Below are positions 5,729 to 32,677 of a stretch of 40,139 nt of DNA, one piece after another. Under the pieces are notes generated by a model. It was given only the letters and a program-made list of their open reading frames with translations. It searched no databases and was not told the origin of the DNA. The DNA comes from Bacillota bacterium (GTDB lineage: Bacteria; Bacillota; Sulfobacillia; DUSP01; JBFMCS01), in contig JBFMCS010000053.1 of NCBI GenBank assembly GCA_040754315.1, forward strand, positions 1 through 40,139. The letters are read 5' to 3'. A program made the position numbers and the translations under genes. Position 1 is the first letter of the stretch. The number at the start of each line of letters is the position of its first letter.

Positions 5729-7387
5729 CTACCACGACCTGTCCGGCCGGTACTGGCCAAAGGCCCCTCGAAGAACACCGCATATCTCCCCCAGGGAGGC
5801 ATAGGCCTTTACCGCCTCCAGGAACAGGGGAAGGAGGTTCTCCCGAGAGGAAGCCGCCTTCTTTATGGCATCCAGGCACTCCTGGACACGGCCTTCGTTC
5901 CTTCTCGCCTTAAGAGCCGCGAGCCTCGCAGCCTGGAGCCTCGCAGCCTCTTCATCCACCTGAAGCAACATCTCGCAGGAATCCTCTTGGACGGTAAAGG
6001 CGTTAACCCCTACCACAACCCTTTCCCCGGATTCAACCTCTCTCTGGTAACAGTAGGCGCTGTCCTGGATTTCGCGCTGCATGTACCCGGCCTCGATGGC
6101 GGCCACTGCGCCACCCATATCCTCAATGCGATCCATGTAGGCCGCGGCCTCCGACTCCAGGCGGTCCGTGAGGGATTCTACGTAGTAGCTGCCACCCAGG
6201 GGATCGGCACAGCCGGCAACGCCTGACTCGTGGGCTATGATCTGCTGGGTCCTCAGGGCAATGGCCACGGATTCCTCGGTCGGAAGCGAGAGCGCCTCAT
6301 CCCGTGAGTTGGTATGCAGGGACTGGGTGCCCCCCAGCACCGCCGCCAGGGCCTGCAGGGTCACCCGGACCACGTTGTTGTTCACCTGCTGGGCAGTGAG
6401 GGTTGAGCCCGCTGTCTGGGTGTGGAATCTCATCATCCAGGACTTGGGGTCCTTTGCCCTAAATCGTTCTCTCATGATCCTGGCCCAGAGGCGCCTGGCC
6501 GCCCTGAACTTGGCCACTTCCTCCAGAAAGTCCAGGTGAGAGTTGAAGAAGAAAGAAAGCCTTGGGCCAAAACCGTCTACGTCAAGACCGCTGGCCAGGG
6601 CCGCCCTTACGTACTCCACCCCGTTGGCCAACGTGAAGGCGATTTCCTGTGCCGCCGTGGCTCCGGCCTCCCTGATGTGATACCCGCTGATGGATATCGT
6701 GTTCCACTCGGGAAGGTGCCGGGAACAGTACTGGAACGTGTCGGTGATGAGTCTCATGGACGGTTTCGGCGGGAAGATGTAGTTACCCCTGGCCACATAC
6801 TCCTTGAGTATGTCGTTCTGTATGGTTCCCTGCAGGCTGTTGACATCCACCCCCTGCTTTTGGGCCAGGGCCACGTACATGCACAGGAGGATCGCCGCAG
6901 GAGCGTTTATCGTCATGGAAGTGGACACCCGGTCCAGGGGTATCCCCTCAAAGAGCCTCTCCATGTCCGCCAGGGTATCTATGGCCACTCCCACTCTCCC
7001 TACTTCCCCCTCGGCCATGGGGTGGTTGGAATCGTACCCCATCTGGGTGGGGAGGTCGAAGGCCACGCTGAGACCGGTCTGGCCTTGCTCCAGAAGAAAA
7101 CGGAAGCGCCGGTTGGTCTCCTCGGGCGTGCCATACCCCGCGTATTGTCTCATGGTCCAGAAACGGCCCCTGTACATGCTGGGGTGCACGCCGCGGGTGA
7201 AGGGATAATCCCCAGGGAATCCCAGGTCAAGCAGGTAGTCCTTCCCGCTGAGGTCCAAGGGGGTGTACACTGCATTAACCGAGAGTCCCGACGGGGTTTT
7301 AAACTGCCCCTTTCTCTCCGGGTGCCGGGAGATCGTCTGGGCTCTCCTGGCCTCCCAGCGCTCAAAGGCCTCCCGAAGGCGATCCAT
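5729..7387 (-). CDS. mcmA1: Methylmalonyl-CoA mutase, large (catalytic) subunit
   Basis: A 552-residue catalytic TIM-barrel subunit that interconverts succinyl-CoA and (R)-methylmalonyl-CoA with adenosylcobalamin. The CoA/substrate region reads [16 protein letters not shown] and [14 protein letters not shown]. The residues that separate true methylmalonyl-CoA mutases from isobutyryl-type mutases are both of the methylmalonyl kind: Tyr in RQYAG and Arg in PSMRL. The radical-cage His is in [12 protein letters not shown]. The protein ends at about residue 550, so the cobalamin-binding domain (DxHxxG) must be a separate subunit, and none is in this window. Start ATG at 7387 with GGGAGGGG upstream. 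The preceding gene is gdh, the next mmdA. Confidence 0.95.
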
Positions 7388-7520: not shown

Positions 7521-8777
7521 TCAGCCGAGCCAGCCTCTGATCTTCATGGCCCCGGCCACCCTGTTCACAGCCACCAGGTAGGCGGCGTCTCTCATCTTCA
7601 CACTCTTCTTCTTTTGCATGTCGTAGACAGCCTCGAAGGAGGATACCATCATCTGCTCCAGGCGCTCGTTGACCTCTTTTTCCGTCCAGTAGAAGCTGTA
7701 GAGGTTCTGTACCCACTCGAAGTAGGAGACGGTTACGCCTCCGGCGTTAGCGAGGACATCAGGGATGACGAACACGCCGTTACGGGCCATTATAACATCG
7801 GCCTCGGGGGTGGTGGGGCCATTGGCAGCCTCCCCCACGATCCTGGCCTTGATATCCTTGGCATTGGCCGCTGTGATCTGGTTTTCCAGGGCCGCCGGGA
7901 TTAACACCTCACACTCCAGTACCAGCAGTTCCTCATTGGAGACATCCTGGGAACCTGGGAAACCCTTTACACTACCAGTCTCGTTCTTGTACTCCTGGAG
8001 CTTGGCCGGGTCCATCCCCGCCGGGTTATAGACGCCTCCCTTGGAGTCGTTGGCCCCTATGATCTTCGCTCCCATGTCTCCCATGAGCCTTGCTGCGATG
8101 CTCCCAGCGTTGCCGTAGCCCTGAACCACAGTACGTGCACCCTTCATGTCGATGCCCAGCTTCCGCCCGGCCTCGCGCACCGTTACAACGCAGCCACGGG
8201 CCGTGGCCTCATTCCGCCCTGCGGAACCGCCAATGATCAGGGGCTTGCCGGTGATGAGACCAAACTGGTTCTTCATCTTCATCTTTGAGAACTCGTCCAC
8301 CATCCAGGCCATCACCTGAGGATTGGTGTAGACATCCGGCGCGGGGACATCCATCTCCGGGCCTACTATGGCGGCAATGGCCCTAATGTACGAGCGGCTT
8401 AGCCGCTCCAGTTCCTTGACAGAGAGTTCCTTTGGATTACAGGCCACTCCACCCTTGCCACCGCCGTAGGGAAGGCCCAGGATGGCACACTTGAATGTCA
8501 TCCACATGGATAGCGCCCTCACCTCATCGGCGTTCACATCCGGGTGGAAGCGAATGCCGCCCTTACAGGGGCCCACCGCATCATTGTGCTGGGAACGATA
8601 TCCTTGGAAAACCTTCACACTGCCATCGTCCATCTCGACAGGCACCGCCACCTCAAGGAACCTGAGGGGTTGCTTCAGGAGATCGTATACTGCTGGCTCA
8701 AGACCGAGAGCCTTGACAGCCTCAGCCACCTGGCTCTTTACGATCTCATAGGGGTTGATGTTCTCGGACACAGACAA
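7521..8777 (-). CDS. gdhA: Glutamate dehydrogenase
   Basis: A 418-residue Glu/Leu/Phe/Val dehydrogenase that deaminates glutamate to 2-oxoglutarate and ammonia with NAD(P). The substrate-binding and catalytic Lys region [10 protein letters not shown] is at about residues 69-78, followed by [10 protein letters not shown]. The dinucleotide fold has [23 protein letters not shown] and [18 protein letters not shown] are the conserved late segments. Length fits the hexameric bacterial class. ATG at 8777 is preceded by AAGGGAGGG. It lies between the 2-oxoacid oxidoreductase genes and methylmalonyl-CoA mutase, which makes a catabolic role most likely. Confidence 0.96.
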
Positions 8778-8827
8778 ACCCTCCCTTGCTTTCCTTCTCT
8801 AGTTTAGGGAAAAAATCACTCCAGTCA

Positions 8828-9391
8828 CTACCTACCCCCTCGTTCCTGAGGCCCCTCCAGGGATCCTGCAGTGGCGAAACCCACCTCTAGGGCCTTCAGG
8901 TTCACGTCGGCGGTCCCCTTGGGCACCCTGTCCAGAACAGCAGTGGTCAGGGCATCCCTGGAGACGACGCCGGAAAGCCCCACAAGAAGCCCAAGAGCCA
9001 CTATGTTGGCGGTAATGGCCTTGCCGACCTTTTCCCGGGCCAAGGCCGTTATGGGCACACAATAGGCACTACACGTGGCACAACCGGTGTCCGGAACCCC
9101 ACCGGAGTCCACCACCAGGAGGCCGCCGGGTTTCACGTCCGAGGAGTATCGATCGAAGGCCTCCTGGGTCATGACCAGCAGGACGTCAGGCCTGGAGACC
9201 TTGGGATAGTCTATGTCACCGTCATCGATGACCACCTCTGCCTTGCTGGCGCCTCCCCTTGATTCCGGGCCGTAAGACTGGCTCTGCACAGCGTTGAGCC
9301 CATCATGTATTGCGGCCGCCTCAGCCAGGATGATGCCGGCCAGGATCAACCCCTGGCCACCCTCACCGGCCAGCCTGACCTCCACGCGCAT
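8828..9391 (-). CDS. korC: 2-oxoacid:ferredoxin oxidoreductase, gamma subunit
   Basis: A 187-residue gamma subunit of the KorABCD-type enzyme. It starts MRVEVRLAGEGGQGLILAGIILAEAA, the usual glycine-rich signature, and has SYGPESRGGASKAEVVI and YPKVSRPDVLLVMTQEA as in other KorC/PorG proteins. The ATG overlaps the korB stop (TGATG), so the two are coupled. Last of the four subunit genes, 50 bases before gdh. Substrate is inferred from context to be 2-oxoglutarate; 2-oxoisovalerate or another 2-oxoacid cannot be excluded. Confidence 0.93.
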   Translation of the reverse strand: MRVEVRLAGEGGQGLILAGIILAEAAAIHDGLNAVQSQSYGPESRGGASKAEVVIDDGDIDYPKVSRPDVLLVMTQEAFDRYSSDVKPGGLLVVDSGGVPDTGCATCSAYCVPITALAREKVGKAITANIVALGLLVGLSGVVSRDALTTAVLDRVPKGTADVNLKALEVGFATAGSLEGPQERGGR

Positions 9392-10224
9392 CAGGAACGA
9401 CCCCCCTTCAGGCGAGCCATGGCAGTGTCGATGACCCGCTGGTATTCCTCGGTGAATTCCTCCCTGGGAGCCTTCTTCAGCACGCCCGTGACGATCTTTC
9501 CTTTAAGCTCCTGGGGGTCCTTGGTTGCCGCGGCCTTCACGGGGACCGAATTCTTCTTGTACCACTCGAGCATATCCACGGCAGACCCTAGCTTGTTCCT
9601 CCGGCCGTAGTAGGTTGGGCACTGGGAATAGGCCTCAACAAAGCTGAACCCCTTGTTCTCCAGGGCCAGGGCTATGAGGTCCACCAGCTGTGTCACGTGA
9701 TAGGCGGTACCCCTGGCCACAAAGGTAGCCCCCGCCGCAGCCACAAGGTCACACAGGTCAAAGGGATGATCCACATTACCGTAGGGAGCCGTCGTGGCCA
9801 TGTGCCCAAATGGCGTAAGGGGCGAGTGCTGGCCGCTGGTCATCCCGTAGACATTATTGTTGAAGCACACTGTGGTGATGTCCACATTCCGCCTGCAGGC
9901 GTGGATCAGGTGGTTTCCCCCGATGGCAGCGGCGTCCCCGTCCCCGGTGACCACCACCACCTTGAGATCAGGCCGGGCAATCTTGATCCCTGTGGCAAAG
10001 GCCAGGGCCCGGCCATGGGTTGTGTGCAGGGTATCGAAATCCATGTACCCCGTGGCCCTGGAAGAACAGCCGATCCCGGAGACCATCACCGTCTTGTCCC
10101 TGTCAATTCCCACCTTTTCGATGGCCCTCAAGATTGCGCCCAGGAGTATGCCGTGACCACAGCCCGGGCACCAGATATGGGGCAAGAGACGCTGCCTCAG
10201 GTACTTCTCGGCAATAGCACTCAT
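9391..10224 (-). CDS. korB: 2-oxoacid:ferredoxin oxidoreductase, beta (TPP-binding) subunit
   Basis: A 277-residue subunit carrying the thiamine diphosphate site. HIWCPGCGHGILLGAI near residues 17-32 is the N-terminal KorB signature. VVTGDGDAAAIGGNHLIHACRRN with FNNNVYGMTSGQ (about residues 90-128) forms the GDG...N TPP/Mg motif. Length is that of the short KorB type. It overlaps korA by four bases and korC by one. Together with the alpha subunit it oxidatively decarboxylates a 2-oxoacid to the acyl-CoA and reduces ferredoxin. Confidence 0.95.
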   Translation of the reverse strand: MSAIAEKYLRQRLLPHIWCPGCGHGILLGAILRAIEKVGIDRDKTVMVSGIGCSSRATGYMDFDTLHTTHGRALAFATGIKIARPDLKVVVVTGDGDAAAIGGNHLIHACRRNVDITTVCFNNNVYGMTSGQHSPLTPFGHMATTAPYGNVDHPFDLCDLVAAAGATFVARGTAYHVTQLVDLIALALENKGFSFVEAYSQCPTYYGRRNKLGSAVDMLEWYKKNSVPVKAAATKDPQELKGKIVTGVLKKAPREEFTEEYQRVIDTAMARLKGGRS

Positions 10225-11354
10225 GGGGCAACCCTCCTCACAGCCTCAAGTACCTCCGGTGGAGTGAAGAGCTCCCCGTCAACCCGGGACAATCCCTCAA
10301 CCCTGCATTGTCCCTTGGAGGCCCTGTCTACCTCAATGACTATCTGGCCCAGGTTCATCTCCGGTACCAGGATGGCCTTGACCCGTCCCGCCAGGTCCCG
10401 GATGGCCTCTTCCGGGAATGGCCACAGGATCCCCAGTTTCACTAGGCCTGCCTTGATGCCCTGGGCCCTGGCCATCCTTACCGCACGTAGCGCGACCCTC
10501 ACCGGAGAACCGTATGCCACCACGGCAACCTCGCAGTCATCGCAGGACTCTGACCACACCGATGCCAGCTGGGCCCTGCGCCTCTCCACCTTCTGGCACA
10601 CCCTGGCCAGCAACTGGGCGGCCTTGGGGCCCCTGTCGATGGGAAACCCGTCCTCCCCGTGATAAAGGCCGGTAACGTGGAACCGGTAGCCCGCGCCGAA
10701 GGCAGCCATTGGGGGCACATCGGAGCGCGAAACATCGTAGGGCCTGTACTCCCCGGGTTCAACATCAGGCCCAGGCCTCTCTAGTATGGTAACCTTCTCG
10801 GGGATCACCATCTTCTCTCTCATGTGGCCAATGACCTCATCCATCAAGAGGATGGTGGGAGTCCTGAGGGTCTCCGAGGCATTCACCGCGTCTATTGTGA
10901 AGTGATAGGCCTCCTGTACGGAAGACGGGCAGTACACGACTGTGGGGTGGTCGCCGTGGGTGCCCCAGCGGGCCTGCATGACATCTCCCTGAGCAGGGCA
11001 AGTCGGCAGCCCCGTGGATGGGCCCACCCTCTGGACGTTCACCACCACACAGGGCACCTCCGCCAGGGCAGCATATCCCAGGTTCTCCTGTTTGAGACTG
11101 AAGCCCGGGCCCGACGTGGCAGTCATGGACTTCACTCCCGCCAGCGAGGCACCAATGACCGCCGCCATGCTGGCTATCTCATCCTCCATCTGCACGAACT
11201 TGCCTCCCACTTGGGGGAGGCGAAGGGCGAGCGTTTCCGCGATCTCTGTCGATGGTGTGATGGGGTAGCCTGCGAAGAACCGGACACCCGCCCTTATGGC
11301 GGCCTCGGCGCAGGCCTCATTCCCCTGTAATAAAACAACCTTGCCTTCACTCAT
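10221..11354 (-). CDS. korA: 2-oxoacid:ferredoxin oxidoreductase, alpha subunit
   Basis: A 377-residue alpha subunit. GNEACAEAAIRAGVRFFAGYPITPSTEIAE near the N-terminus and MTATSGPGFSLKQENLGYAA are the family signatures for the pyrimidine-binding side of the TPP site. GLPTCPAQGDVMQARWG follows. The open frame could start at 11438, but the extra residues do not resemble the family. The ATG at 11354 begins the expected MSEGKVVLLQGNEA and overlaps the ferredoxin stop by eight bases. The subunit order D-A-B-C matches archaeal and clostridial 2-oxoglutarate:ferredoxin oxidoreductases. Confidence 0.94.
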   Translation of the reverse strand: MSEGKVVLLQGNEACAEAAIRAGVRFFAGYPITPSTEIAETLALRLPQVGGKFVQMEDEIASMAAVIGASLAGVKSMTATSGPGFSLKQENLGYAALAEVPCVVVNVQRVGPSTGLPTCPAQGDVMQARWGTHGDHPTVVYCPSSVQEAYHFTIDAVNASETLRTPTILLMDEVIGHMREKMVIPEKVTILERPGPDVEPGEYRPYDVSRSDVPPMAAFGAGYRFHVTGLYHGEDGFPIDRGPKAAQLLARVCQKVERRRAQLASVWSESCDDCEVAVVAYGSPVRVALRAVRMARAQGIKAGLVKLGILWPFPEEAIRDLAGRVKAILVPEMNLGQIVIEVDRASKGQCRVEGLSRVDGELFTPPEVLEAVRRVAP

Positions 11355-11583
11355 CAGTCTCACCTTCGTCAAGGACGATGGCGAAATCGGGGCAGCGAAG
11401 CTCGCACAGGCGACAGCCGGTGCAGGCCTCCGGGTCAATCACCACAGCCTTGCCGGCATCCCCCTCCCCCAGTACAGCCTTGGGACAGAAGGCTATGCAG
11501 ATCCCGCAGCCTTTGCACCACTTCGAATTGATGATCACCTTGTGCTTCTTCTCGGCGGTCTTCAAACCGTCATCACTCCCCAT
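11347..11583 (-). CDS. korD: 2-oxoacid:ferredoxin oxidoreductase, delta (2[4Fe-4S] ferredoxin) subunit
   Basis: A 78-residue bacterial-type ferredoxin. Two CxxCxxCxxxC/P clusters are plain: CKGCGICIAFCPKAV (about residues 23-37) and CTGCRLCELRCPDFA (about 54-68). It passes electrons out of the oxidoreductase. The ATG overlaps the stop of the GntR-family gene (TGATG), so the regulator and the enzyme genes are transcribed together. Confidence 0.94.
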   Translation of the reverse strand: MGSDDGLKTAEKKHKVIINSKWCKGCGICIAFCPKAVLGEGDAGKAVVIDPEACTGCRLCELRCPDFAIVLDEGETDE

Positions 11584-12566
11584 CAGTATCTGCTCTTTCT
11601 TTCGAGGAGGGTTGACTTGAGGAGGTTGATGGAACCGGCATCAGGCCGGTAGATGAACTCAACCACCTCGGTCCCGTTGGGACACAGCCTCTCTACCTCT
11701 TTCTTCCTTCCAGGGCTCACCATGACGATGCTCAAGTCCTCCAGGAATTCCTTTAGGTCCTCTTCGTTCCTTGAGGTTAGGAAGGAGAACTCCAGATCTA
11801 TCCCGCCGTTGGTCAGGGACTTGGCCACCCGTTCAGAGAAGGCCTCAGACAGGCAGACCAGTCCTACCTTCTGGCCGGGCCGCACCCTGGCCATGCGTAC
11901 CATGGTCTCCATCACAGGATCCAGCGCTATTCCCAGCACCTCTGCCTTGGATCCCCGGAGGAGTTCCTTCACCTCCTCCAGGTGGAAGAAGGTGGTCACC
12001 ACCATGTCCACCCCCGAAAGCGTCCACCTGACTGCCTCGGCCTGCCGGCGGAGATCGTCCACCATCACAGGGATGATCTTCACCCCGGCGCCTAGTTCCA
12101 GTTGCCTGGTGAAGTAGTCCAGCTGCTCGCGGTTGCACTCCACGAAGGCCACCCTGATCTGGGTGAGCGCCTCCTTCTTCCGCTCCGCCACAGCCCTGGC
12201 GGAGGCCACGAACTCCTCAGGGTCAAATCCCAGGAGGAGTGCCTCCTCCAGGCACATCTCCAAGGCCCCAGCCAGGCGTTCCCTCCGGTCCCTGGGTCCC
12301 ATGGTGTTGAGCCCCATGGTGACAAAGGTCCCCCTGCCTTGCCGGGAGAACAAGAGGCCCTGGGATTCAAGCTCCCTGTAGGCCATGCTCACCGTGTTCC
12401 TGGAAAGCCCCAGGCGTTGTGCCATCTCTCGCTCCGTCGGGAGTTTCATTCCCTTCTCCCAGTGCCCGGCGAGCACCATCTGCTCGATTTGCCTGCTAAG
12501 TTGGAGGTAGATGGGGATGCCAGTCTTCCTGTTAATCTCCAGAGGCAACGTCTTGCCCTGTCCCAT
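11583..12566 (-). CDS. GntR-family transcriptional regulator
   Basis: A 327-residue regulator. Residues about 10-80 form the winged helix of the GntR family: IPIYLQLSRQIEQMV, LPTEREMAQRLGLSRNTVSMAYRELE and a wing ending GRGTFV. The remainder (residues about 100-325) alternates strands and helices (VGLVCLSEAFSERV, VVTTFFHLEEVKELL) like a periplasmic-binding-type or UTRA-like sensor, but I cannot name the ligand. It is the first gene of the array and overlaps korD by one base, so it probably controls the glutamate/2-oxoacid pathway, including itself. Confidence 0.88.
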   Translation of the reverse strand: MGQGKTLPLEINRKTGIPIYLQLSRQIEQMVLAGHWEKGMKLPTEREMAQRLGLSRNTVSMAYRELESQGLLFSRQGRGTFVTMGLNTMGPRDRRERLAGALEMCLEEALLLGFDPEEFVASARAVAERKKEALTQIRVAFVECNREQLDYFTRQLELGAGVKIIPVMVDDLRRQAEAVRWTLSGVDMVVTTFFHLEEVKELLRGSKAEVLGIALDPVMETMVRMARVRPGQKVGLVCLSEAFSERVAKSLTNGGIDLEFSFLTSRNEEDLKEFLEDLSIVMVSPGRKKEVERLCPNGTEVVEFIYRPDAGSINLLKSTLLERKSRY

Positions 12567-12608: not shown

Positions 12609-12807
12609 TGCAGTTGGCCTGATCGTAAGAGCCTTTTTGGATCACTATGTGACTGTTCGACGCACACTTGTCGATTCCTTCAGGCTCATGTGACAACCAT
12701 GACAAGAGAATCCAGAGTAGTGATGGCAGGGCAAAAGGACGAGTCACCCCGCCAGGACCCCAAGAGGAGTACTCGGCGGTTTCGCCCGGTACTTGCACTA
12801 TATAGAC

Positions 12808-29225: not shown

Positions 29226-29706
29226 CAGGACGGCTGCCAAGAGGAGTCAATCTGGAACAGGCCGCCATGCCCATGGGTCAGCTGGGATGGCGGTCTTTCT
29301 TGCGCCCCAGGATGAGAGGGGCACCGTCATCGCAGGCTAAGGCCAGGGTGAGGGGGCCCCCGGGGAGCACGGCAATACCGGGACAACCAGGAACCCCTGC
29401 TTCCTCGTCAGGCCTTCCCTAAGCACTCGAGGTGACTCGTAGTACACCACGGCCCCCGGTCCCAGGACTGGCATGGAAGCGTGGGAGCCGGGTCACATCA
29501 TCCTGGCACCGAGTGGCTGGTCCCCGGTGTGCCATGGGACACATCCCCCAGGGCCCATGGAGGAGGAAACCCCGGAGACACCGTGGAAGAAGGAGCATGG
29601 TGTAACGCACATATCACCCGGTCATCCCGTCCAATACCTCTCGATTGGGGGTGGTGGCACGAGAACGCCTGTGGACCCCAACTTGAAAGCGAGGGAGGGA
29701 GGAGTA
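29226..29706. other. Leader region of mttB with dyads and a possible broken frame
   Basis: No intact gene seen. CCATGGG (29532-29538) and CCCATGG (29554-29560) form a perfect seven-base dyad. GTGTGCCATGGGACAC (29528-29543) is a near-perfect palindrome. Both are candidate operators or leader hairpins for mttB. On the minus strand a frame from 29474 (MPVLGPGAVVYYESPRVL...) runs into a shifted frame ending near 29279, protein-like but unrecognised, and may be another gene remnant. Confidence 0.35.
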
Positions 29707-31185
29707 TTGAAAAAAGGCATACAGGCAGCATTCAACGTCACAGCGGGGTTCGGTCTTAACATGTTTTCCAGTGATGAACTCTACAACATACATCTAGCCA
29801 CCTTGGATGTGCTCTACCGGTGCGGGGTCAAGGTCCACTCCAGGGAAGCGCAGGAGATCATGGACGGCGGAGGGTGCATCGTGGACCCCAAGACGAGCAT
29901 GGTAAGGTTCCCGTCCTGGGTGGTGGAGGAAGCCATCCGCTGGGCCCCTCCGAAGGTGGTGCTCTGGGGCAGGGACCCCGCCAAGAAGGTAGTGCTGGAG
30001 GGAACCCGGGTCCACTTCACCAACTTCGGTGAGGGCATCATGATGCTGGACCCCTTCACAGGGGAATACCGGAAGTCCACCAAAGAGGACGTAGCCTGGA
30101 CAGCCCTCATGGCCGACGCCCTGGATGAGATCGATGTGTACGAGCGGGCGGTCTCCGCCCGGGACATGCACCCGGAGGTGGCCCCGCTCCACGAGGCTGA
30201 GGCCTACTTCTCTAACACCACCAAGCCCTGTTTTCAGGGTCCCGGCAGTGGGTGGCTGGCCAAGAAGCAGTTTGCCATGGCCGCTGCGGTGGCGGGGGGA
30301 ATGGACAGGCTGAGGACGCGCCCGGTGCTCTCCACCATTGTCTGCCCCACAAGCCCGTTACAGCTCACCCCGCACTGCTGTGAGGTAATAGTGGAATCCG
30401 CCAGGCACGGGGTACCCGTGAATGTGCTATCCATGGCCATGGCGGGCGGCTCCTCCCCGGTGACCCTCGCGGGCACGCTGGTTACCCACAATGCGGAGGT
30501 GCTCTCCGGCATCGTCCTGGCACAGCTCACCGCCAAGGGGACACCCGTGATATATGGCAGCTCCACGACAATGATGGATCTCCGCACTGCGACCGCGCCA
30601 GTGGGCGCGCCGGAGACAGGTATGATAAACGCAGCCGTGGCGAGGCTTGCCCAGTTTTACCTGTTACCCAGCTGGGTTGCCGGTGGTTAGGGGGACAGCA
30701 AGGTCCCCGATGCCCAGGCGGCTCATGAGAAGACCATGACCGCCCTCCTGCCGGCCCTGGCCGGGGCGAATCTCATCTACGGCCTGGGCATGCTCGAACT
30801 AGGAATCACCTTCAGCTTCGAGCAACTGGTGATGGATGCGGAGATGGCCCGGATGATCAAGAGAGTGGTAGGCGGGATTGACGTCAATGACGAGACCCTG
30901 GCAGTGGATGTCATCACGCAGGTAGGCGCCGGTGGTGACTTCCTGATGCAGGATCACACAATGAAGCACATGAGGACGGATCAATCCCAGGCCCGGATGA
31001 TCAACCGCAAGATGAGGGATGCATGGCTCCAAGAGGGCGGCAAGGACATGACCGAAAGGGCACGCGACGAAGCCCGGTACATCATCAACAACCACAAGCC
31101 CGAGCCGCTCACTGCAGGCGTCGCCGGGAAACTCAGGGAGATCGTCGAGGAGACCGAGGAGGAACTGGGGATCCGCAAGCCCTAG
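29707..31185 (+). CDS. mttB: Trimethylamine methyltransferase MttB with in-frame TAG (pyrrolysine)
   Basis: A 492-codon gene of the MttB family, which transfers a methyl group from a methylated amine to a corrinoid protein. An in-frame TAG at 30688-30690 (codon 328) divides two frames in the same phase. The frame before it ends [11 protein letters not shown], and the frame after it continues without any shift as [15 protein letters not shown], the normal MttB sequence at the known pyrrolysine site. The true stop is TAG at 31183-31185. TTG start at 29707 follows GGGAGGAG and gives the expected N-terminus ([19 protein letters not shown]). Length agrees with family (about 495). No corrinoid protein (mttC), permease or pyl genes are in the window. 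The alternative is a nonsense mutation, but the strict frame continuity, family site and ordinary codon use after the TAG argue for readthrough as pyrrolysine. Confidence 0.9.
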
Positions 31186-31261
31186 AGGCCCGGAGGACCC
31201 GCCGGAATACCGCGGGCTGGCCGAGAAAGGGGCCGGACCGGTTTTTGGGGAGGAGTTGCAG

Positions 31262-32677
31262 ATGAAGAAATCCTTCCAGTTCCTCGAACTGGACGACGTA
31301 AAGAAGGTGCACCAGGCCACCCTGGACATTCTGGAACGGGTTGGCATCGCCTGCCAGTCCGAGAATTTCAACAGGTTCGCGGCTGACCACGGGTGCAAGG
31401 TCGAGGGAGGGCGGATCAAGTTCCCCCCCGGTGTGGTGGAGAAGTATCTCAAGATGGCTCCGGAAGGCTTCAACCTGTACGGCCGGGAAGGCCAGGTGCT
31501 GGAGTTCGGGAAGCGACAGGCCTACTCGCAGATCTGCAGCGGCACACCTACGGTGAACGACCTTGACACGGGGGAGCGGAGAAACTACGTCCTCCAGGAC
31601 CTCATAGACATCACCCGCCTGGTGGACGAGCTCCCCAACATCCACATAGTGTCCTGCGGCGTCCCCACGGATGTGGACCAGAAGGTCTACATGGTGGTGG
31701 AGATCGCCACGATGCTCCAGAACAGCTCGAAGCCCTGCAGGCTCCCCATTGAATCCGCCGTGGAACTCAAGGAAGTGTCAGAGGTGCTCTCAGTGGTATC
31801 AGGCAGCATGGATGAGTTCCGCAAGAAACCCCTGCTCTACCTGGAGGTATCCCCCTTGAGCCCGCTGGACTTCGGGAAGGAGCCCGCCGAGTGCATCGTG
31901 GCCTTGGCAGAGGCCGGCATCCCGGTGGGCATCATACCCTGCCCCATGATGGGTGCCACAGGGCCCATGACCCTGGTTGGCTCGGTGACCCAGCACAACG
32001 CCGAGCTGGTGGCGGGCGTCGTGGCGGCCCAGATGGCCAACCCGGGCGTTCCCACGGTCATGTCCCCCCGGGTCACCTTCATGGATATGAAGAGCGGCAC
32101 CGCCCTGTGGGCAGCCCCGGAGACCGGTATAGCGGGGGCCTGCTCCGCACACATGGCCAACTACTACAAGATCCCGGTCACGGTATCCGGTTTCTCAGTG
32201 GCCTCACAGGTAGCGGACCAGCAAGCTGGCTACGAGCGCACCTTCAACGCCATGGCCACCGCCATGGTGGGGGTGGATGTGCTGGGAGCCGCGGCATCGC
32301 TGGATAACGCCTTGACCACCTGCTACATCCAGGCGATCCTGGACGATGAGATCTGCTCCCTGGTGAGGCGGGCGCTGAGACCCTTGGAGGTCAACGAGGA
32401 TACCCTCGCAGTGGACGCCATAGCGGAGGTAATCCAGAAGAACACCTCCTTCCTCGGGCTGAAACACACCCGGAACTACCTGAGGAAAGGCGAGCTCTGG
32501 GTGCCGTCCATAGGGAGCCGCCTGACCTTCGAGGAGTGGGCCAAAGAGTGCGAGAGCGTGGAACAGGCGGCAAAGCGGAAGGCCACCCAGATCCTCAAGG
32601 CCGAGAGGAGACCCATCCTGGACACGAATGCCGAAAAGGAGATAGAGGCAATCATCCAGGCAGCCATGGCCGAGTAG
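31262..32677 (+). CDS. MttB-family methyltransferase without pyrrolysine
   Basis: A 471-residue MttB-superfamily protein. It opens with LDDVKKVHQATLDILERVGI, parallel to the first MttB. It has IPCPMMGATGPMTLVGSVTQHNAE and SPRVTFMDMKSGTALWAAPETG in the barrel. The residue aligned with pyrrolysine is Ser in IPVTVSGFSVASQVADQQAGYE. Non-pyrrolysine members of this superfamily demethylate quaternary amines such as glycine betaine, proline betaine or carnitine; which one applies here cannot be read from sequence. ATG at 31262 with GGGGAGGAG six bases ahead is better than the TTG at 31256. It follows mttB by 76 bases on the same strand. Confidence 0.88.
   Translation: MKKSFQFLELDDVKKVHQATLDILERVGIACQSENFNRFAADHGCKVEGGRIKFPPGVVEKYLKMAPEGFNLYGREGQVLEFGKRQAYSQICSGTPTVNDLDTGERRNYVLQDLIDITRLVDELPNIHIVSCGVPTDVDQKVYMVVEIATMLQNSSKPCRLPIESAVELKEVSEVLSVVSGSMDEFRKKPLLYLEVSPLSPLDFGKEPAECIVALAEAGIPVGIIPCPMMGATGPMTLVGSVTQHNAELVAGVVAAQMANPGVPTVMSPRVTFMDMKSGTALWAAPETGIAGACSAHMANYYKIPVTVSGFSVASQVADQQAGYERTFNAMATAMVGVDVLGAAASLDNALTTCYIQAILDDEICSLVRRALRPLEVNEDTLAVDAIAEVIQKNTSFLGLKHTRNYLRKGELWVPSIGSRLTFEEWAKECESVEQAAKRKATQILKAERRPILDTNAEKEIEAIIQAAMAE

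Follow-up and report, generated by a model that had tools for sequence, protein, structure and literature searches.

An mttB gene with an in-frame TAG codon

The window, that is, the whole analysed stretch of 40,139 nucleotides and the entire contig C53 of a Bacillota genome (G000), carries on its forward strand an mttB gene for a trimethylamine:corrinoid methyltransferase of the pyrrolysine (Pyl) type (positions 29707-31185). The reading frame starts with TTG at 29707, preceded by a purine-rich, Shine-Dalgarno-like GGAGG at about 29698-29702, and ends on a TAG at 31183-31185, beyond which the same frame meets its next stop 67 codons downstream. Translation reveals a single internal stop, TAG at 30688-30690, which is codon 328. 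If this codon is read as pyrrolysine, the product comprises 492 amino acids and matches Pfam MTTB as well as TIGR02369, the equivalog model for Pyl trimethylamine methyltransferases, over its full length (761.9 bits against a cut-off of 525 bits; model positions 1-469 of 469). An earlier sequence-only reading had placed the frames on both sides of the TAG in phase and had predicted that together they yield a complete MttB; its coordinates and codon number are correct. Its expectation that a standard annotation would divide the gene is borne out by the open reading frame listing, which gives 29473-30690 and 30736-31185, and mttB clearly exemplifies how ordinary annotation breaks such a gene in two.

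Chromosomal housekeeping genes surround mttB. One flank comprises ruvC, ruvA, ruvB, queA and tgt, and the other a BofC-domain gene, yebC and a ThiF gene. The presence in the window of BofC, a sporulation protein, fits a Bacillota host. Only 70 bp downstream of mttB, on the same strand, a second gene of the MttB superfamily (31256-32677) encodes a non-Pyl member with Ser at the corresponding site (Pfam MTTB, 284 bits; TIGR02369, 355 bits and thus below the cut-off); it terminates with its own TAG and is probably cotranscribed with mttB. No tRNA was found within the window, and the flanking genes scanned around mttB include no corrinoid protein gene.

Residue 328 aligns with Pyl334 of the solved Methanosarcina barkeri MttB (7XCM), the pyrrolysine position of that enzyme (PMC9842639), just where the sequence-only reading had suggested looking. 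Homology to the archaeal protein (PDB 7XCL/7XCM/7XCN) extends over the full length. The active-site residues Gly110, Met249, Tyr364 and Gly372 are all present; Gly110 and Tyr364 were taken as pocket residues from PMC9842639, and these two as well as Met249 have equivalents in the M. barkeri enzyme. The window protein differs from its archaeal counterpart by Glu in place of Thr at position 111 and by its bacterial host, and no mttC was found beside its gene. In addition, the methyl groups presumably enter C1 metabolism in the bacterium instead of being converted to methane.

Among the 37 distinct TAG-containing mttB genes that were aligned, every one has the TAG in the identical column, and in a Desulfosarcinaceae homologue it likewise is codon 328. 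Protein identity to three relatives is about even before and after the TAG (67/67, 67/67 and 69/63%), and on either side of it third codon positions are about 2-5 times more variable than the first two. Purifying selection is equal on the two sides. Together, the constant TAG column, the even identity and the codon-position pattern imply that the frame beyond the TAG is translated and selected.

The pyrrolysine cassette and its distribution

The host genome (2.92 Mb, 65 contigs, rated 100% complete, 3.6% estimated contamination) harbours on contig C43 (locus L035), in this order, tRNA-Pyl, pylSc, pylB, pylC, pylD, pylSn and mtbB. The tRNA-Pyl (pylT, 7118-7189) has a CUA anticodon and adjoins pylSc; its fold displays one base between the acceptor and D stems, a D loop of 5 nt and a long anticodon stem, which are features of tRNA-Pyl (PMC3941956). 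All five protein-coding pyl genes exceed their NCBIfam cut-offs: pylSc (between tRNA-Pyl and pylB; 345 bits), pylB (8158-9231; 456 bits), pylC (9228-10394; 381 bits), pylD (10397-11209; 248 bits) and pylSn (about 11222-11593; 117 bits). Directly after pylSn, mtbB, the gene for a dimethylamine methyltransferase, contains an in-frame TAG at 12674. The set for expansion of the genetic code, namely pylT (CUA), a split pylS, pylB, pylC and pylD, is complete, so that the search proposed by the sequence-only reading returned all of its targets in one cluster. The split pylSn/pylSc and a TAG-containing mttB are shared with Acetohalobium arabaticum, Desulfitobacterium hafniense and Candidatus Formimonas warabiya DCMF. 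Unlike in these systems, the window mttB is separated from the pyl cluster and located between ruvC and bofC/yebC, the genome has four TAG-containing mtbB genes, and the MttB paralogue adjacent to pylT has probably lost its TAG.

Overall, TAG occupies the Pyl position in six methylamine methyltransferase genes of this genome, two mttB and four mtbB; the second mttB of this kind, on C14, is 51% identical to the one in the window. As the cassette (C43) and the window (C53) represent different contigs, a binning error is conceivable in principle, given the number of contigs and the estimated contamination, but TAG-containing methylamine genes also occur on C14, C56, C11 and C52 of the same bin, which counts against it.

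The genome is rich in relatives of mttB, with 30 MTTB-family matches, of which 26 are full-length and many are located on C52, where MttB genes share an island with an mtbB and with corrinoid proteins. Numerous MttB paralogues are likewise found in other Bacillota with Pyl systems (82 in DCMF; PMC9768040). Twenty-four full-length members have a sense codon at the Pyl site, and the non-Pyl superfamily (MtgB, MtpB, MtcB, MtyB) belongs to the same fold family as the window MttB. The non-Pyl members of this genome are 28-42% identical to the window protein, except for the Val paralogue next to pylT (50%); most have Cys, Val, Leu or Ala at this position and His in place of Tyr364. The sole mtmB-like gene (L041 1477-2889, contig C23) lacks an amber codon, follows an apparent corrinoid-protein gene and resembles a recently described non-Pyl MtmB class (MtqB); the known non-Pyl MtmB homologues include a tetramethylammonium/choline methyltransferase (PMC13044021). 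An MttB gene on C4 with two in-frame TGA codons was considered as a candidate for selenocysteine and rejected, since both TGAs come before any Met of the conserved region and thus lie upstream of the gene.

This abundance of paralogues bears on the substrate. That the window gene encodes a Pyl protein acting on another methylated amine or methyl donor would be compatible with the two divergent Pyl-MttBs and the 30 superfamily matches in one genome, and the role of the Pyl-MttB of strain DCMF is undecided (PMC9768040). However, a score of 762 bits lies well within the equivalog model for trimethylamine, and Gly110, Met249, Tyr364 and Gly372 are retained, which makes a different substrate unlikely. 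We are highly confident in the prediction that 29707-31185 encodes a pyrrolysine-containing MttB that would act on trimethylamine.

We surveyed 398 genomes of the phylum, scoring as TAG-mttB any MttB above the TIGR02369 cut-off with a TAG. pylSc is present in 23 genomes, 22 of which have TAG-mttB; in the remaining one (G127), with a completeness of 83%, only an MttB fragment was seen. By comparison, TAG-mttB occurs in 3 of the 375 genomes that lack pylSc, and these are 61, 80 and 89% complete. MtbB yielded 35 matches in 17 genomes, all with pylSc, and TAG is present in 35 of 35. Within the same order, one genome (G001) has pylSc and TAG-mttB and another (G002) has neither. Because the whole cassette, the TAG-containing genes and the co-occurrence of pylSc with TAG-mttB point the same way, it is very probable that pyrrolysine is both synthesized and inserted by the host. 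This supports the corresponding proposal of the sequence-only reading; of the two observations that it had named as contradicting pyrrolysine, an absence of pyl genes and a sense codon in close relatives, neither was made, and the relatives carry TAG. Pyrrolysine use is an already known trait of some Bacillota, and this gene adds one more lineage to the bacteria that have it.

UAG 328 and the ordinary use of TAG

Stop codon usage was estimated from a 552 kb sample of the genome (the window, L035-L040 and L122-L141), in which a simple codon-model gene call delineated 420 genes. TAG terminates 157 of them, TGA 193 and TAA 70; as the gene call is approximate, the TAG share of 37% is an estimate. 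It is higher than the background of 27.5% that TAG contributes to stop triplets over all frames. Across relatives, 10 of the 37 TAG-mttB genes also end on TAG. Backup stops show no clear enrichment behind terminal TAGs (within 10 codons, 17% for TAG, 13% for TAA and 22% for TGA). The only clear cases of Pyl proteins in the 552 kb sample are methylamine genes, and other long extensions past a TAG resemble, by their first residues, a following gene that shares the frame. Thus, unlike Pyl methanogens, this bacterium does not avoid TAG, in keeping with other Bacillota Pyl systems, in which amber codons are managed by regulation instead of avoidance (PMC3941956). Since UAG is also a common ordinary stop, including that of mttB itself, pyrrolysine insertion must be conditional or leaky.

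The frequent use of TAG for termination lends some weight to the view that codon 328 is a true stop and mttB a pseudogene or the source of a truncated protein, and translation would indeed end there whenever charged tRNA-Pyl is absent. As a full account, this view is refuted by the downstream part of the gene, which is conserved like the upstream part; the single TAG column across 37 distinct genes and the complete pyl cassette also speak against it, and we consider it extremely improbable.

A dedicated RNA signal downstream of UAG 328 (a PYLIS-like element) would explain why this codon is decoded and terminal UAGs stop translation. In its favour, an Rfam PYLIS_3 match (30688-30787, forward strand, 85.4 bits) starts exactly at the TAG, and a perfect 6-bp hairpin follows immediately (30691-30708); when the 80-nt stretch was shuffled 200 times, 5 of the shuffled sequences folded equally well. 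The hairpin is not conserved in relatives, being complete in only 1 of the 37 TAG-mttB genes, and compared with other parts of these genes the region behind the UAG has only a slight advantage in folding (mean z -0.39). Moreover, the paralogue with Val at the Pyl site, which has no UAG there, matches PYLIS_3 as well (54.1 bits). A conserved structure downstream of the UAG was not found, and the match is one of sequence; in view of the TAG-less paralogue and the unconserved hairpin, it reflects coding conservation of the protein. In agreement, no common structure was found for mttB in PMC3639795. We therefore rejected PYLIS as the recoding signal and regard a dedicated element of this kind as improbable.

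For incorporation, substrate and regulation, we infer the following scheme. PylB, PylC and PylD would build pyrrolysine from lysine, the split synthetase PylSn+PylSc would charge it onto tRNA-Pyl(CUA), and the charged tRNA would decode the UAG of codon 328. If the protein works like its archaeal counterpart, trimethylamine would bind to the imine of pyrrolysine and donate one methyl group to a corrinoid protein. The resulting dimethylamine may then be demethylated by the Pyl-MtbB enzymes that this genome encodes. Because UAG is so frequent as an ordinary stop, the amount of charged tRNA most likely sets the limit on insertion; methylamines may induce its supply, as has been reported for Acetohalobium. 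A certain level of termination would be expected at codon 328, and likewise a certain level of read-through at other UAGs. There is proteomic precedent for a Pyl-MttB in a Bacillota strain (PMC9768040).

Sense-codon members of the pyrrolysine clade

The paralogue with Val at the Pyl site (codon GTT) lies on contig C43 (L035 5346-6836, reverse strand; TIGR02369, 626 bits), adjoining pylT in divergent orientation. Although devoid of an amber codon at this position, it belongs to the Pyl clade of MttB, as do two proteins from the genomes G072 and G030 with His (CAT) at the site (L101 4966-6471 and L106 3827-5329, respectively). G030 is 98% complete and lacks pylSc; its gene for the His member precedes those for a BCCT transporter and a corrinoid protein in an apparent operon. 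Relative to TAG, GTT requires three nucleotide changes and CAT two. Mixed inventories have precedent in M. burtonii, which has mttB genes both with and without amber (PMC3941956); the literature searched yielded no description of Pyl-clade members with a sense codon.

The three Val/His proteins form a clade (support 100/100) that is nested among TAG genes. Its enclosing forks have support values of 97/93 and 99/95, and of 99/98 and 96/96 when M. barkeri is added. An AU test against a single clade of TAG genes gave p values of 0.056 and 0.059, so that secondary loss is likely, albeit short of formal proof. On the strength of the bootstrap values, this group has probably lost pyrrolysine secondarily. 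A further Pyl-clade MttB, in G127 (L095, contig C290), has GTG (Val) at the site and Phe at the position of Tyr364, and is a fragment cut by the contig end; it possibly represents an independent loss.

The Val/His group retains Gly110, Met249, Tyr364 and Gly372, whereas most other sense-codon MttBs have His at 364. We also compared the 86 columns in which Pyl-MttB is conserved and the three Val/His members uniformly keep or uniformly change the residue: 81 are kept and five are changed, namely the Pyl site and positions 209, 284, 286 and 383. The Val/His protein appears to be a functional enzyme whose pocket is altered. We tentatively suggest that this clade, having lost pyrrolysine and kept its catalytic residues, may act as a Pyl-free amine methyltransferase, a reading that we find plausible yet do not favour.

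For the host, the co-existence on one mRNA of an internal UAG that would specify pyrrolysine and a terminal UAG that signals stop makes the limits on bacterial pyrrolysine insertion directly testable. For the family, the Val/His clade, if its proposed history and function are true, would be a natural experiment on MttB's need for pyrrolysine, and these sister enzymes could reveal what a trimethylamine-type active site does without it.
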